From assembly GCA_016934715.1 (NCBI GenBank), contig JAFGSI010000046.1, positions 1 to 45,103 of the forward strand: a stretch of 45,103 nt of DNA, written 5' to 3'. The translations under genes were made by a program, and so were the position numbers. A model generated the notes under the pieces. That model saw only the letters and a program-made list of their open reading frames with translations. It had not been told where the DNA came from and did no database searches. Within the stretch, counting starts at the first letter, position 1. Each line of letters begins with the position of its first letter. The DNA is from Anaerolineales bacterium. Its GTDB lineage: Bacteria > Chloroflexota > Anaerolineae > Anaerolineales > Villigracilaceae. Shown here piece after piece: positions 21,230 through 27,083 of this stretch.

Positions 21230-24199
21230 TCATCCTTGTGATCGCCGCCTGTCACCAAGGCGCACGAAGAATTTGGTGATCTCCTCAGCGATCGCCGGGA
21301 GCAGCGCCAGGCCCAGCACAACCCCCCATTCGCGCGGAGCCATGAAATGGGTGTTGAAGATCGGCTGGAGAAAAGGCACATTGACGACCAGCATCAAGAG
21401 ACCGATCGACAGTGCAACCGCGTACTGCATGTACCTGTTCGAGAACACACCGATCCTGAATAGCGATGCCCGCTCAGAACGAACAGTATACGCGCGGAGC
21501 AGTTCACAAAGCGAGAGGGTCACAAAGGCCATCGTTTCAGCAGTCTGCACGTCCACGCCGCGCCAATCGTGCTGCAACAAATAGACGACCGCATTCATCC
21601 CGTCAGGAATGACCGCTCCGGCCTCCAGGTGCCAGACCAAGCCCAGGCCAAATGCCAGCAGGACCGCCCCGGTCTGGGCGATGGTCTGGATGGTCAAACC
21701 CAGGCCCATGGTCCGATTGATGATCGGCTCGTGCTTGGCGCGCGGTTTCTGGTCCATGATATCCGGATCGCCTTTTTCCATTGCCAGTGCCAGCGCCGGG
21801 GCGCCGTCGGTGATCAGGTTGAGCCATAGCAATTGGATGGCGGTCAGGGGAGCCGGCAGACCTCCCAGAGTGGCCAGGAAGATGATCATGATCTCGGCCA
21901 CATTGCTGGAGAGCAGGAAGAAGACGAACTTGCGGATGTTCGCATAGATGATCCGCCCTTGCTCGACCGCCGAAACGATGCTGGCATAGTTGTCGTCAGT
22001 CAGGACCATATCGGCGGTCTCTTTGGCTACGTCGGTGCCAGTAATGCCCATCGCCACGCCGATATCCGCTCGCTTGATGGCCGGGGCATCGTTGACACCG
22101 TCGCCAGTCATGGCGACGACCTCGTCGTTGGCCTGCAAGGCATCGACGATGCGCATCTTGTGTTCGGGAGAGACCCGGGCGAACACATCGGTGATTCGGA
22201 TTTCTCGCCGGAGGTCGTCGTCGGACATCCGGTCCACGTCAGCGCCGGTGGCGACCTTGTGGGTCGGGTGCAGCAGACCGATGGCCTCGGCGATCGCCCG
22301 GGCAGTGTTGGGATAGTCGCCGGTGATCATCACCGTGCGGATACCCGCCTGGGCGGCAGTTTCGAGGGCCTCCTTGACCTCCTCGCGCGCCGGGTCGATC
22401 ATCCCCAGCAAGCCGACAAAGATCAAGTCGCGTTCGAGTTCGTCGACCTTGATCTCACCGTCAGGAACGTCTTTTTCGAGCCGGTAGGCCACACCGAGCA
22501 CACGCAGGGCATCCTGGGTCATGACATCGTTGGCAGCCAGGATGCGCATGCGCGTCTTCTCGTCAAGTTTACGCGGCTTGTCGTCCATGCCCTGGTAATG
22601 GGTACACAGGCCCAGGACCACATCCGGTCCGCCTTTGACCGCCACCACGTCCCAGCCGCGGTGCTTGTCGTCATAGAAAGGAGAGAGGTCCTCCGGATGC
22701 GGGTCCTCGACATCATGGATGGTGATCATGCGCTTGCGTTCCGAGTCGAAGGGAACCTCATTCTCGCGCGGATAGGCCGCCTTGACCGTCACCGGTAGGG
22801 CTCCGGTCTTGGCGGCCGCCACGAGCAAGGCGCCCTCCGTCGGGTCGCCCACGATGCGGTAGGTCTGCTTCTCGTCGCTCTCGCCGGTGCTTTCCAGTTC
22901 CGAATCGTTGTTGAGCACGCCCAGCCAGAGGGCCGTCAGAACAGCCGGGTATTTTGTCAGGTCGACCGTCTTGCCGTCGACCCGGAATTCTCCCTGAGGC
23001 GTGTAGCCCGAGCCGCTCACCTCGACAAACTCACCGTCGGCCCACAGGCGGGTGACGGTCATCTCGTTCTGAGTCAGGGTACCGGTCTTATCCGAGCAGA
23101 TGACGGTCGCCGAGCCGAGGGTTTCGACCGACGACAGCCGGCGGATCAGGGCGTGACGGTTGACCATCTCGCGCATCCCCAGCGCCAGGCTGATCGTCAC
23201 CACTGCCGGCAGTCCCTCGGGCACGGCCGCGATCGCCAGGCTGATGGCGATGATGAAGACTTCGGTGATCTCGCGGGCATACGTCCGGAAGTATTCCAGC
23301 GGGCCGCTGAACAGCCCTCCGATCACAGTGTAATTGATCAGCGCCACGATAAAGACCACCGCCACCAGGATGAGAGAGCCAATCGACAGGATGCGGCCCA
23401 GCTGATCGAGGCGGCGCTGCAGAGGCGTCTCCTCCACATCGACGCCGGAGAGCATCTCTGCGATCAGCCCCAACTGGGTACGCATCCCCGTTCCCGTGAC
23501 GACGCCGCGCCCGCGCCCGTAAGCGACAGTCGTCCCCATGAAGGCGGTGTTGCGGCGGTCGCCCAACGGCACGTTTTTTTTCAGGACGCTGGCGGCATTC
23601 TTCTGGACCGGCAGTGATTCGCCGGTCAACGAAGCCTCTTCGACCCGCAAATTGACCGCCTCCAGCAGGCGCACGTCGGCTGGAATGAAGTTCCCGGCCT
23701 CCAGGAAGACGATATCCCCAGGGACCAGCTCGGGCGAGGAGACCATGATGCGGTGCCCATCGCGCAGCACCTGGGCTTCGGGGGCAGCCAGTTTCTTAAG
23801 CGCCGCCAGGGCCTCCTCGGCCCGCCGTTCCTGGATGATGCCCAGACCGGCATTCAAAACAACGATGGCCAGGATTGCGCCAGCTTCGATGAATTCGGCC
23901 GTCTCACCGCTGTGGCGATACTCGTTCCAGCCGATGATCCCGGAGATCAGGGCCGCCACGATAAGCAGCCATACTACGAAGCTGTTGATCTGATCCCAGA
24001 GCATCTTCAAGAAACCGGGGCGCGGCGCTTCACCCAGCTGATTGGGACCATAGTGCGCCAGGCGTTTGGCAGCCTCTTCAGAGGTCAGGCCATTTTCCTG
24101 AACTTGCAGGTGCTCAAGGACACTCTCGACAGGCAGTGCGTGCCACTCCTCTTTCAGCGGCTCAGGGACATCATCAATGGATGCTGTAGGCTGATTCAT
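21230..24199 (-). CDS. P2-type cation-transporting ATPase (Ca2+/Mn2+ exporter type)
   Basis: A 989-residue P-type ATPase with the complete catalytic set: TGES (192-195), PEGLP in helix 4 (327-331), CSDKTGTLT with phosphorylated D370, 'TGDGVNDAPAIKRADIGVAMG' for the hinge, and ten expected helices. Ion-site residues of the SERCA type are kept in helix 5 (SSNVAEIM) and helix 6 (NLITDG). The helix 8 glutamate of SERCA is replaced: 'VTLSLCELL' aligns with 'VTIEMCNAL'. One ion per cycle, as in PMCA/SPCA pumps, is therefore likely. Such pumps export Ca2+ or Mn2+. The gene lies 53 bases behind glgC and, if co-transcribed, under the Mn2+-type riboswitch at 25612-25744, which would point to Mn2+. The ion is inference. 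Confidence 0.93.
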   Translation of the reverse strand: MNQPTASIDDVPEPLKEEWHALPVESVLEHLQVQENGLTSEEAAKRLAHYGPNQLGEAPRPGFLKMLWDQINSFVVWLLIVAALISGIIGWNEYRHSGETAEFIEAGAILAIVVLNAGLGIIQERRAEEALAALKKLAAPEAQVLRDGHRIMVSSPELVPGDIVFLEAGNFIPADVRLLEAVNLRVEEASLTGESLPVQKNAASVLKKNVPLGDRRNTAFMGTTVAYGRGRGVVTGTGMRTQLGLIAEMLSGVDVEETPLQRRLDQLGRILSIGSLILVAVVFIVALINYTVIGGLFSGPLEYFRTYAREITEVFIIAISLAIAAVPEGLPAVVTISLALGMREMVNRHALIRRLSSVETLGSATVICSDKTGTLTQNEMTVTRLWADGEFVEVSGSGYTPQGEFRVDGKTVDLTKYPAVLTALWLGVLNNDSELESTGESDEKQTYRIVGDPTEGALLVAAAKTGALPVTVKAAYPRENEVPFDSERKRMITIHDVEDPHPEDLSPFYDDKHRGWDVVAVKGGPDVVLGLCTHYQGMDDKPRKLDEKTRMRILAANDVMTQDALRVLGVAYRLEKDVPDGEIKVDELERDLIFVGLLGMIDPAREEVKEALETAAQAGIRTVMITGDYPNTARAIAEAIGLLHPTHKVATGADVDRMSDDDLRREIRITDVFARVSPEHKMRIVDALQANDEVVAMTGDGVNDAPAIKRADIGVAMGITGTDVAKETADMVLTDDNYASIVSAVEQGRIIYANIRKFVFFLLSSNVAEIMIIFLATLGGLPAPLTAIQLLWLNLITDGAPALALAMEKGDPDIMDQKPRAKHEPIINRTMGLGLTIQTIAQTGAVLLAFGLGLVWHLEAGAVIPDGMNAVVYLLQHDWRGVDVQTAETMAFVTLSLCELLRAYTVRSERASLFRIGVFSNRYMQYAVALSIGLLMLVVNVPFLQPIFNTHFMAPREWGVVLGLALLPAIAEEITKFFVRLGDRRRSQG

Positions 24200-24252: not shown

Positions 24253-25518
24253 TTACTTGCCGGGTTCGATGCGGGTACCGGGAAAGATGATGGCGTTTTT
24301 GGGGATGACGACGATCCCGTCCTGGACAGTCCAGTTCTCGGTGACAATGTCCGTGCCTGGCGGGAAGGGCTTGATCGTCACGTTGGCCCCGATACGGGCG
24401 TTCTTGTCAATGATCGCGCCGGAGATCGAACCGTTCGGGCCGACACCGATTGCCGGCAGGGCCGGATCGCCGCCGGCCTCGTCGGTGAAGTAGTCGGCCC
24501 CCATGAGGATGCTGTCGCGGACCTTGGTCCCTGCGGAAATGACGCTGCGCACGCCGACCACCGAATGGCTGATCTCCGACTTCTGGATGAGGCAGCCCTC
24601 CGCCAGGACGACGTCCTTCAAGCGACTGTCCTCAACCGATGAGCCGGGCAGGAAGCGGGCGTGGGTGTAGATCGGATGGTTCGAGTCGTGGAAATTAAAA
24701 GGCGGGTCCTGCACGGTCAGTTCGAGATTGGTCTCGTAGAACGAGCGGATGGTCCCGATATCACGCCAGTAGCCCTCGAAATCAAAGCCGTACACGGAAT
24801 GGGCGCCAATGGCATGCGGGAGCACGTCGCCGCCGAAATCGTCAAAGTCCGGGTACTGGTTCAGGACGTCGACCAGGACATCGGTGTTGAAGAGATAGAT
24901 TCCCATGGAAGCCAGGAACGGCCGTTTTTTATCGTTCCGGCTGACGAACTGCTTCTGGACCGCAGGATCCTTGGGCTTCTCCACGAAAGCCGAGATGCGC
25001 CCGTCGGATTCTTTCTTCAACAAGCCAAGGCGGGTGGCCTCGCTCTTCGCCACCGACTGGACCGCCACAGTGACATCGGCCTTGTTCTCGCAGTGGTAAT
25101 CAAACATCTCGCTGTAGTCCATACGGTAGAGATGGTCCCCGGCCAGGATCAGGACATATTCGGCCTGGCTGGACTTGATCTGGAACAACTGCTTGCGGAC
25201 GGCGTCAGCCGTGCCCTGGTACCAGTCGGCCGAGTCGGGGGTCTGCTCGGCGGCGAAGATCTGCACCCAGCCGATGTGGAAGGTGTCGAAGTTGTAGGCC
25301 TGGGTGATGTGGCGGTGCAGGGAGTGGGAGTTGAACTGGGTCAGGACAGCGATCCGGTAGATGCCCGAGTTGATGCAGTTGCTGATCGGAATGTCGATCA
25401 AGCGGTATTTTCCGGCGATCGGGACGGCAGGCTTGGAACGCAACTTGGTCAATGGATACAAGCGCTGGCCGCGCCCGCCGCCCATGACCACGGCCAGGGT
25501 ATCATTCAGAGCAGGCAT
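24253..25518 (-). CDS. glgC: Glucose-1-phosphate adenylyltransferase (ADP-glucose pyrophosphorylase)
   Basis: A 421-residue enzyme that makes ADP-glucose, the committed donor for glycogen. The nucleotidyltransferase part has 'VVMGGGRGQRLYPLTKLRSKPAVPIAGKYRLIDIPISNCINSG'-type start sequence, 'LAGDHLYRMDY' and 'FVEKPKD'. The C-terminal left-handed helix has hexapeptide repeats and ends 'GVVVIPK'-like ('GIVVIPKNAIIFPGTRIEPGK'). It resembles the cyanobacterial/plant GlgC group. The start codon follows GAGGAGGAC at good spacing. No other glycogen gene of the usual operon is adjacent. The 5' leader carries a probable Mn2+ riboswitch with terminator, which is not a known regulator of glgC. Confidence 0.96.
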   Translation of the reverse strand: MPALNDTLAVVMGGGRGQRLYPLTKLRSKPAVPIAGKYRLIDIPISNCINSGIYRIAVLTQFNSHSLHRHITQAYNFDTFHIGWVQIFAAEQTPDSADWYQGTADAVRKQLFQIKSSQAEYVLILAGDHLYRMDYSEMFDYHCENKADVTVAVQSVAKSEATRLGLLKKESDGRISAFVEKPKDPAVQKQFVSRNDKKRPFLASMGIYLFNTDVLVDVLNQYPDFDDFGGDVLPHAIGAHSVYGFDFEGYWRDIGTIRSFYETNLELTVQDPPFNFHDSNHPIYTHARFLPGSSVEDSRLKDVVLAEGCLIQKSEISHSVVGVRSVISAGTKVRDSILMGADYFTDEAGGDPALPAIGVGPNGSISGAIIDKNARIGANVTIKPFPPGTDIVTENWTVQDGIVVIPKNAIIFPGTRIEPGK

Positions 25519-25588
25519 AAGTCCTCCTCGTGTAGCATGTTACCGTATGATATCCCATATTGCACGTTTCAAACAGTCAATCTGACAG

Positions 25589-25622
25589 AACACAAAGCGA
25601 GACTACCCAATGGCAGTCTCGC
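25589..25622 (-). terminator. Riboswitch-controlled intrinsic terminator in the glgC leader
   Basis: On the minus strand GCGAGACT (25622-25615), a ten-base loop and AGTCTCGC (25604-25597) form a perfect 8-base-pair stem, followed by TTTGTGTT. The 5' arm is exactly the conserved 3' strand of the aptamer, so aptamer and terminator cannot form together. Ligand binding should block termination, giving an ON switch. Confidence 0.8.
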
Positions 25623-25744
25623 GAACGCTCGCAGGCGCACAAGTCACCGGCGGTTTACCCTGGATACTGCGAAGGGCCTGGCCGCGTCCTGACGATGACC
25701 TGTCCCGTGCCGATGGGGCAAACGGGCGCTACTCCCTGACAGCC
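25612..25744 (-). promoter_or_regulatory. yybP-ykoY family (Mn2+) riboswitch aptamer, probable
   Basis: The minus-strand leader contains GGGAGTAGCG (from 25736), near-identical to the conserved 5' element GGGGAGUAGC, and GTTCGCGAGAC (ending near 25618), matching the 3' element of type UUAGCAAGACC. A closing helix pairs GGCTGTC (25744-25738) with GACTGCC (25618-25612) apart from one T-T. A second helix pairs GTTTGCCC with GGGTAAAC. TGACTTG before the last hairpin matches the conserved UGACAU segment. Known members sense Mn2+ and control exporters, including P-type ATPases. Here glgC follows directly and an ATPase gene comes second. Confidence 0.78.
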
Positions 25745-25747
25745 CCC

Positions 25748-25777
25748 ATCTTACATGAGAAGCAGGCCGGATGTCAA
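25748..25777 (-). promoter_or_regulatory. Promoter of the riboswitch-glgC transcript
   Basis: Minus strand TTGACA (25777-25772, consensus), an 18-base spacer and TAAGAT (25753-25748). Transcription would begin near 25741, just before the closing helix of the aptamer. Confidence 0.8.
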
Positions 25778-25816
25778 CCCCTCCGGAAAGGCTGCCAGGC
25801 GACTGCAATCCAAGAC

Positions 25817-25842
25817 AAAAGCCCCTCTGTAGCCAGAAGGGG
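25817..25842 (-). terminator. Terminator downstream of tRNA-Leu
   Basis: On the minus strand a CCCC(T)TCTG...CAGAGGGG stem with a four-base loop is followed by CTTTTG. It lies about 58 bases after the tRNA and separates it from the glgC promoter. Confidence 0.65.
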
Positions 25843-25899
25843 AACGGGGTCTACCATATCCACAGGATTTGTTTACACATTCCGACAAGAAAAGTATAA

Positions 25900-25982
25900 T
25901 GCCGAAGGTGGGGATCGAACCCACAAGGGCTATGCCCACACGAGTTTGAGTCGTGCGCGTCTGCCAGTTCCGCCACTCCGGC
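25900..25982 (-). tRNA. tRNA-Leu (anticodon CAA)
   Basis: A class II tRNA. The acceptor is GCCGGAG with CTTCGGC (one G-T), the anticodon stem is CACGA with TCGTG around CTCAAAC (anticodon CAA), a long variable arm GGGCATAGCCC follows, and the T arm is GTGGG-TTCGATC-CCCAC. The discriminator is A at 25900, and CCA is not encoded. Confidence 0.95.
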
Positions 25983-25994
25983 TCTCGCGAAGGA

Positions 25995-26023
25995 AGTATA
26001 CCCACTCCCAAAGATAAGGTCAA
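25995..26023 (-). promoter_or_regulatory. tRNA-Leu promoter
   Basis: Minus strand TTGACC (26023-26018), 17 bases, TATACT (26000-25995), with the tRNA 5' end 12 bases on. The -35 box covers the ribosome site of the divergent ychF gene and ends 1 base before its ATG. Confidence 0.82.
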
Positions 26024-26024
26024 G

Positions 26025-27083
26025 ATGAAACTCGGAATTATCGGCCTGCCCCAATCTGGAAAGACAACCCTCTTCAACGCCCTGACGCGTGGCGACGCGC
26101 CGACCACCGCCTCGGCCGGCCGGATCGAGGTCCACACCGCCGTGGTCGACGTCCCCGACCCGCGTGTCGATGCGCTCTCGGCGATGTTCAATCCCAGGAA
26201 GACCATCTTCGCCAAGGTCACCTACGCCGACATCGCCGGCCTGGAGGGCGGCGCGGCCAGAAGCGGGATATCCGGCCCGCTGCTCAACCAACTGACCCAG
26301 ATGGACGGGCTGATCCACGTGGTGCGCTGCTTCCCCGGCGAGAACGTCCCACATCCAGCAGGGAGCGTCGACCCAGCCCGGGATGTGGTCACGATGGACA
26401 GCGAACTGCTGCTCAATGATCTGATCGCCGTCGAGCGCAAGCTGGAGCGCCTGGACGAGGAGCGCCGCAAGGGCGGCACCGACAAGGTCGTAAACGAGCG
26501 CCAGACAACCCTGTTCAAGCGCCTGCACGAGATCCTGTCAACGGAGAAACCGCTGCGCGGAGTTGAGGTCAGCGCCGAGGAGGAGAAATATCTCTCCGGT
26601 TTCGGCCTGCTGACCCGCAAGCCGCAGCTCGTCCTGCTCAACCTGGGTGAGGGCCAGGCAGCTCCCCAGGTGCAGACCGATGCGCCGGTCGCGGCCTTGC
26701 AGGGCAAACTGGAGATGGAGATCGCCCAGCTCCCGGCAGACGACGCAGCCCTCTTCATGCAGGAGTACGGCATCGAAGAGCTCGGTCTCAACCGGATGAT
26801 CAAGATTTCCTACGATCTGCTCAGCCTGCAGTCCTTTTTCACTGTCGGGGAGGACGAGGTGCGGGCCTGGACTGTGCGCCGCGGGGCGACCGCCCTGGAG
26901 GCCGCCGGTGAGATCCACACCGACCTGCAGAAGGGGTTCGTACGCGCCGAAGTGACCGCCTACCAGGACCTGGTCGATCTGGGAAGCCTGGTCGAGGCCA
27001 AGGCCAAAGGCAAACTCCGCCTGGAAGGTAAAGAGTACATCGTCAAGGACGGCGAGATCGTCCACATCCGTTTTAATGTTTAG
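26025..27083 (+). CDS. ychF: Redox/ribosome-associated ATPase YchF (Obg-like)
   Basis: A 352-residue TRAFAC-class nucleotide-binding protein. The P-loop is GLPQSGKTT (7-15), 'YADIAGL' gives the DxAGL switch motif, and NLGE takes the place of the usual NxxE/NKxD specificity motif, the trait that makes YchF prefer ATP over GTP. A coiled-coil insertion lies at about 125-165 and a C-terminal TGS domain ends 'GKEYIVKDGEIVHIRFNV'. It binds the ribosome and acts in stress responses. The ATG at 26025 is chosen because the protein then starts MKLGIIGLP and AAGG lies 6 bases upstream; the frame is open further up but runs into the tRNA. pepF follows after 21 bases. Confidence 0.95.
   Translation: MKLGIIGLPQSGKTTLFNALTRGDAPTTASAGRIEVHTAVVDVPDPRVDALSAMFNPRKTIFAKVTYADIAGLEGGAARSGISGPLLNQLTQMDGLIHVVRCFPGENVPHPAGSVDPARDVVTMDSELLLNDLIAVERKLERLDEERRKGGTDKVVNERQTTLFKRLHEILSTEKPLRGVEVSAEEEKYLSGFGLLTRKPQLVLLNLGEGQAAPQVQTDAPVAALQGKLEMEIAQLPADDAALFMQEYGIEELGLNRMIKISYDLLSLQSFFTVGEDEVRAWTVRRGATALEAAGEIHTDLQKGFVRAEVTAYQDLVDLGSLVEAKAKGKLRLEGKEYIVKDGEIVHIRFNV

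Follow-up and report, generated by a model that had tools for sequence, protein, structure and literature searches.

A divergent yybP-ykoY-type leader ahead of glgC in a mostly uncultured Chloroflexota lineage

We found that glgC in a 45,103-nt stretch of Anaerolineales DNA (this whole stretch is called the window) is preceded by a structured leader that, by homology and anatomy, is a divergent member of the yybP-ykoY class lying below the Rfam cut-off. The original prediction, a probable yybP-ykoY riboswitch ahead of glgC, is supported by a covariance model for which the window leader was held out, by covariation and by the retention of conserved motifs; Mn2+ sensing is the step that we infer. 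We regard it as very likely that the leader is a transcriptional ON riboswitch controlled by Mn2+ that serves both glgC and the cation ATPase gene behind it. Within this reading, Mn2+ binding, the ON polarity and co-transcription of glgC and the ATPase gene are predicted.

Mn2+ riboswitches are known to control genes of metal homeostasis, and YoaB of Lactococcus lactis is a P-type ATPase. The RNA class is already known; the target (glgC) and the tRNA context are new. In this mostly uncultured Chloroflexota lineage, the committed step of glycogen synthesis lies behind a Mn2+ riboswitch-type leader in several genera, and glycogen synthesis may be under Mn2+ control. The original prediction knew of no report of glgC under a yybP-ykoY riboswitch, and our literature search, mostly open-access with most subscription papers outside its scope, gave none either. 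In the portions of text available, PMC3766115 contains neither glgC nor glycogen, PMC9111926 treats glgC and yybP-ykoY in separate sections, and PMC7793946 has glgC and a TPP riboswitch apart.

The locus and its leader

The minus-strand order in the window is tRNA-Leu, a terminator-like hairpin, a sigma-70-like promoter, the structured leader, glgC and a P-type cation ATPase gene:

21230-24199 (-): P2-type cation ATPase, Ca2+/Mn2+ group, 989 aa (domains, cut-offs, comparison with solved chains)
24253-25518 (-): glgC, glucose-1-phosphate adenylyltransferase, 421 aa (NF002772, 548.2 bits, cut-off 537; TIGR02091, 440.7 bits, cut-off 424.9)
25587-25749 (-): structured leader, yybP-ykoY-like, with terminator (sequence inspection, held-out model)
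25587-25596 (-): T-rich tract TTTGTGTTCT, 3' of the terminator stem (sequence)
25597-25622 (-): intrinsic terminator stem, 11 bp, -19.6 kcal/mol; 5' arm includes the 3' strand of P1.1
25610-25749 (-): yybP-ykoY-type aptamer, whole covariance-model match (held-out model R2, lineage model R1, fold analysis)
25614-25738 (-): switch helix P1.1, 25738-25736/25616-25614; pairs C-G, A-U and G-C, with A-U instead of the usual G-C
25625-25638 (-): helix P4, 25638-25635/25628-25625 (fold analysis of glgC leaders)
25639-25703 (-): helix P3, 25703-25693/25649-25639 (same analysis)
25685-25682/25653-25650 (-): helix P3.1, within the P3 region (same analysis)
25690-25692 (-): loop L3 U-C-A, the A being the equivalent of L. 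lactis A41 (invariant columns)
25705-25725 (-): helix P2, 25725-25722/25708-25705 (same fold analysis)
25728-25736 (-): loop L1 motif GGGAGTAGC (17 of 19 glgC leaders in alignment A3; invariant in alignment A1)
25748-25777 (-): sigma-70-like promoter TTGACA-18-TAAGAT (consensus match, 10 of 12 positions)
25822-25841 (-): terminator-like hairpin between tRNA and switch (hairpin scan)
25900-25982 (-): tRNA-Leu (tRNA search; identity Leu(CAA) by ARAGORN from relatives' syntenic tRNA)

GlgC of the window scored above two NCBIfam equivalog cut-offs. Coordinates and profile scores agreed with the proposed arrangement, in which glgC is the first gene and a Ca2+/Mn2+-type ATPase gene lies 53 nt behind it. 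A domain search of the ATPase found P2-type domains, and the nearest solved chains were Listeria LMCA1 (6zhf), then SERCA and SPCA1. The ATPase scored below the PMR1-type cut-off (678 vs. 798 bits) and barely above the PMCA-type Ca2+ cut-off (514.7 vs. 507.05); we therefore treat it as a putative Mn2+ exporter. The genome (4.09 Mb) also encodes MntP and TerC, and the lineage covariance models found one credible switch in it, so both of these exporters appear to be free of such a switch.

The elements named in the original prediction were present on the minus strand: the consensus-like promoter, the conserved motifs including GGGAGTAGC (25736-25728) and GCGAGAC, and a terminator stem built on the conserved strand and followed by the T-rich tract. 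A promoter scan of 25400-26100 on both strands gave 3 such sites, compared to 0.2 in shuffles. The strand GCGAGACTGCC at 25622-25612 (-) forms the 5' arm of the 11-bp stem. The predicted closing helix was real and proved short, with three pairs at 25738-25736/25616-25614 and three at 25729-25727/25623-25621. The window equivalent of L. lactis C45 is 25686 (-). Bare folding of the window RNA was unremarkable (z = -1.41).

Class, fold and the shared strand

RF00080 gave no match in the window even at E 10. The leader is below threshold in the Rfam covariance check that the original prediction had proposed, an outcome counted there as refuting; the genome gave no credible match (two weak ones, E 2.2 and 6.7). 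The RF00080 gathering score (45 bits) was set by curators as a limit of detection and is no property of the RNA itself. It was exceeded in none of the 61 genomes searched and in two of 14 control genomes. At E 1 or better, RF00080 matched 21 of the 61 genomes, some by short partial matches; the cut-off therefore says little in this lineage. The best match (E 1.3e-7) was in one genome of the order. For this bacterial family, Rfam annotation passes over the Mn2+ switches.

A blastn search of the same number of genomes (61) with the leader gave homologous leaders, 68-81% identical over stretches of 52-157 nt. Almost all of the matches resembled chance ones, and four were taken further (L004-L007); a fifth true match, lower in the list (G002:C1, E 0.015), was recognised with lineage model R1. 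RF00080 matched two of the four over their whole length (E 6.1e-6, 32.8 bits; E 1.3e-5, 31.8 bits) and did not reach E 1 on the other two. The homology of the window leader to the RF00080 family runs only through such relatives, which are joined to it by model R2.

R2 was built from 21 leaders of alignment A1 (the window leader and 23 leaders of relatives); the window leader and a further two glgC leaders were held out. We observed that R2 found the window leader in its own genome at 60.5 bits (E 9e-12) and the two other held-out leaders at 73.6 and 77.5 bits; we attribute a second match in the window's genome (16.3 bits, E 2.1) to chance. RNAalifold on A1 showed compensated changes in 18 of 23 pairs. 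The rows of A1 were picked by the two motifs, so motif conservation in it is partly due to selection. Model R1, which includes the window in its training, matched 139 of 152 family genomes and all 26 genera at E 0.01, and 167 of 400 genomes of the order at E 1e-7.

We then analyzed the 19 family glgC leaders found with R1 (alignment A3). They fold into a four-way junction of 30 pairs (P1 with P1.1, P2, P3 with P3.1, and P4), with double, compensated changes in 15 of the 30. Cells paired at 95.6%, compared to 86.4% in shuffles, and 58 cells were double-changed, compared to 14.6; none of 500 shuffles reached the observed pairing or double changes. Shifting the partners in a sliding control abolished the pairing signal, a control that favors the tested structure because the structure was predicted from the same alignment. 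As had been suggested, we compared the glgC leaders of relatives and found GGGAGTAGC in 17 of 19 and GCGAGAC in all 19.

The metal-site residues were also kept. Columns T58, C59, A60 and C64 of L3, the equivalents of L. lactis U39, C40, A41 and C45, showed no variation across the 24 leaders of A1 or the 19 of A3, and they had played no part in picking the leaders. The available text of PMC6754395 and PMC9190785 describes the roles of the Mn-site residues in L. lactis, where N7 of A41 binds Mn2+. The window has A at the position of L. lactis U44. For the loop L1 element GGGGAGUAGC, the window has AGGGAGUAGC, and GGGAGUAGC occurs in 17 of 19 glgC leaders; L3 with the A41 and C45 equivalents, the four-way junction P1-P4 and a switch strand shared with the terminator are present as well. 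The leader thus resembles the L. lactis yoaB leader (RF00080) in its L1 and L3 motifs, its four-helix junction and the placing of the P1.1 3' strand in an intrinsic terminator. Unlike the yoaB leader, it has glgC as its first gene, a short P1.1 with another closing pair, and no detection by RF00080; in some relatives of the window, the switch abuts a tRNA gene.

The helix and the terminator overlap. At 25622-25612, GCGAGACUGCC supplies the 3' strand of P1/P1.1 as well as the 5' arm of the terminator. We inspected 67 switch copies, window included, at loci picked round glgC or round listed matches. The hairpin began on the shared strand in 64 of them (a search without a shuffled control) and off the GAGAC strand in three (L286, L309, L313). 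Both tested positions paired in P1.1 and in the terminator in 60 of 67 copies, and the other seven missed one pair. For the tested triple (P1.1 5' base, shared base, terminator 3' base), G-C-G was commonest; A-U-A occurred in the window alone and preserves both pairings.

In L. lactis, according to the available text of PMC11087558, the 3' segment of P1.1 lies within the terminator stem; read-through follows when Mn2+ stabilises P1.1. The ON polarity proposed for the glgC leader is based on this description. Without Mn2+, GCGAGACUGCC would be taken up by the strong intrinsic terminator, and RNA polymerase would halt ahead of glgC. With Mn2+, loops L1 and L3 would dock, P1.1 would hold part of that strand and the terminator would be blocked, so that glgC and the downstream ATPase gene would be transcribed together. 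High Mn2+ would then be expected to raise both the cation exporter and ADP-glucose synthesis. For the full-length window RNA, the terminator fold (-72.1 kcal/mol) was stronger than the enforced aptamer (-51.1 kcal/mol, 21 kcal/mol weaker); switching would therefore have to be kinetic.

glgC and the ATPase gene as probable targets

GlgC was found at E 1e-120 in 125 of 152 family genomes, and we tabulated one glgC place per genome. The switch lay directly upstream of glgC in at least 19 of the 125, a lower bound because six loci (L228, L264, L275, L279, L291, L306) have short left ends. Twelve of the 19 (the window, G001, G002, seven of g7, G023 and G099) have glgC followed by the ATPase gene, with no second switch found. 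In two, the contig ends in or just after glgC, and no second switch was found there either. The remaining five (G027, G033, G064, G067, G078), from three genera, have one switch before glgC and another between glgC and the ATPase gene; the outer switch of one double locus (L199) was weak (41.1 bits). Among the other GlgC genomes, 29 of 125 had a switch only after glgC, 13 had the ATPase gene after glgC without a detected switch, and 64 had neither found near glgC, 55 of these belonging to one genus (g9); several loci without an ATPase gene are cut by contig ends.

Five genomes have one switch each for glgC and for the ATPase gene; at least in these, then, glgC itself is a target. The glgC switch is there separate from that of the exporter, and whether carbon storage is tied to metal state can be tested directly. 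In the window and 11 further genomes, and in the two with contig ends, one switch would serve both genes; we read the window as the state without the inner switch. The original prediction had offered a choice between Mn2+ control of glycogen synthesis and a glgC caught in an exporter operon. The five double loci favor control of glgC, and where a single switch lies before glgC it would act on both genes at once.

We judge it unlikely that the switch exists for the ATPase gene, with glgC a mere passenger between the two and Mn2+ control of glycogen synthesis playing no part. The next recognised gene after the 67 inspected switches was the ATPase gene in 42, glgC in 19, TerC in two, DedA in one and unknown in three, and the 29 genomes with a switch only after glgC agree with a passenger. 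So does genus g16, where no GlgC was found at E 1e-120 and the glgC-type switch directly precedes the ATPase gene in all four genomes, as it does in G005; this arrangement would also be expected had such an operon lost glgC. Against a passenger, the first switch of the five double loci acts on glgC. The switch before glgC is, moreover, a subtype of its own: in a comparison that uses the base at position 23 alone, the base after AGUAGC was G or A in 18 of 19 switches before glgC (exception L287) and C in 34 of 34 after it, so two kinds of switch exist at the glgC locus. The same-family loci with the switch after glgC and before the ATPase gene (such as L207, L225 and L227) are like the window in fold, terminator plan and kind of ATPase; they differ in that position and in carrying AGUAGCC, compared to AGUAGC plus G or A in the window type. 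On the GlgC tree, the switch-before-glgC trait required at least six changes, gains and losses pooled, at least three of them forced by starred branches, which also argues against a passenger. This tree was made with FastTree only; the long rows G023 (among the 19) and G158 join in it, and the place of G023 is uncertain; 13 of the 19 genomes form one clade (local support 99).

We consider it very improbable that the yybP-ykoY fold is kept in this lineage for a ligand other than Mn2+. Scores below the RF00080 gathering cut-off throughout and the A at the U44 position would suit another ligand; the invariant equivalents of U39, C40, A41 and C45 and a cation ATPase as the usual next gene speak for Mn2+. 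That the leader is just an ordinary terminator with chance motifs is hardly credible. The window copy has no Rfam match and folds with an unremarkable z-score, as chance motifs would, and against this stand the R2 match at E 9e-12 and the covariation among the 19 glgC leaders.

Among the 80 loci listed, nine from named GTDB records (L115-L119, L121, L126, L134, L190) had a switch upstream of glgC. In the sister family f13, 45 of 147 genomes had the switch, 132 had GlgC and 40 had both; in none of these 40 were switch and glgC closer than ~35 kb (lists compared by eye, with stricter filters that may lose weak switches).

Several loci varied in their genes. The ATPase was a 66-82% or a 43-46% relative of that in the window, as if exchanged in place (L108, L111, L112, L199, L216, L251 vs. 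L095, L097, L098). The same riboswitch preceded a DedA gene with the ATPase gene behind it in L096 and preceded TerC in L259 and L313. In L198 it lay among ATPase matches, possibly separating tandem ATPase genes. Between tRNA-Leu and a small ORF, L305 had a terminator-like GCGAGACCGCC...GGCAGTCTCGC with no recognisable aptamer, perhaps a remnant of a lost glgC-side switch.

The tRNA-Leu context and a small membrane protein

Of the 83 family loci with tRNA-Leu(CAA), 18 had the switch model beginning no more than 60 nt from the tRNA. L101 was left out of this count, as its tRNA, in the ARAGORN output, ran across the two ends of the contig. In 15 of the 18 (L095, L097-L100, L103, L104, L106-L110, L196, L286, L287), the switch lay 6-21 nt after the tRNA, before glgC in 13 and before the ATPase gene in two. 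This spacing is too short for a separate promoter of the switch, unless one lies inside the tRNA gene. In the other 65 loci, the first 110 nt after the tRNA held a terminator-like hairpin in 56 (no shuffled control); the switch in the 15 loci therefore occupies the usual place of the tRNA terminator. Forward promoter scans from ychF to the switch in L097, L098, L103 and L106 found none, a weak result because none was found for the tRNA either; the short spacing is the stronger argument. The window differs, with a 150-nt spacer that holds a terminator-like hairpin and a promoter.

We tentatively propose that in close relatives the Mn2+ switch may be a conditional terminator of the tRNA-Leu gene, such that transcription from the tRNA promoter would stop at the riboswitch terminator or, with Mn2+, would run into glgC and the exporter gene; the window, with its own promoter and a tRNA terminator, would be a variant state. 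If true, a single RNA would carry a tRNA, a sensor of Mn2+ and the coding regions for a glycogen-synthesis enzyme and a metal pump. In these loci a riboswitch may also act as the terminator of a tRNA gene.

On the opposite strand, we observed a strong promoter-like TTTACA-17-TATAAT at the 3' end of the tRNA-Leu gene (25872-25900, +), which probably serves ychF. TTATATC beside the tRNA is probably the -10 element of an opposite-strand promoter, likely that of ychF.

A conserved single-helix membrane protein of 34-41 aa (like MKLYLLFAVIDLMILLAYPIVYVIHRIRKMMGVK) was encoded 20-135 nt before glgC at 69 of the 124 non-window GlgC loci. Its gene was not found in the window, and three sequences tested gave no Pfam family over the cut-off. 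The small ORF of L103 was found by tblastn and missed by the profile. The gene (as in L197, L209, L108 and L111) occurred with or without the switch, and in the g16 loci L111 and L112 it lay between the switch and the ATPase gene. The median uncorrected pN/pS of the protein was 0.31 (462 pairs of 31 sequences).
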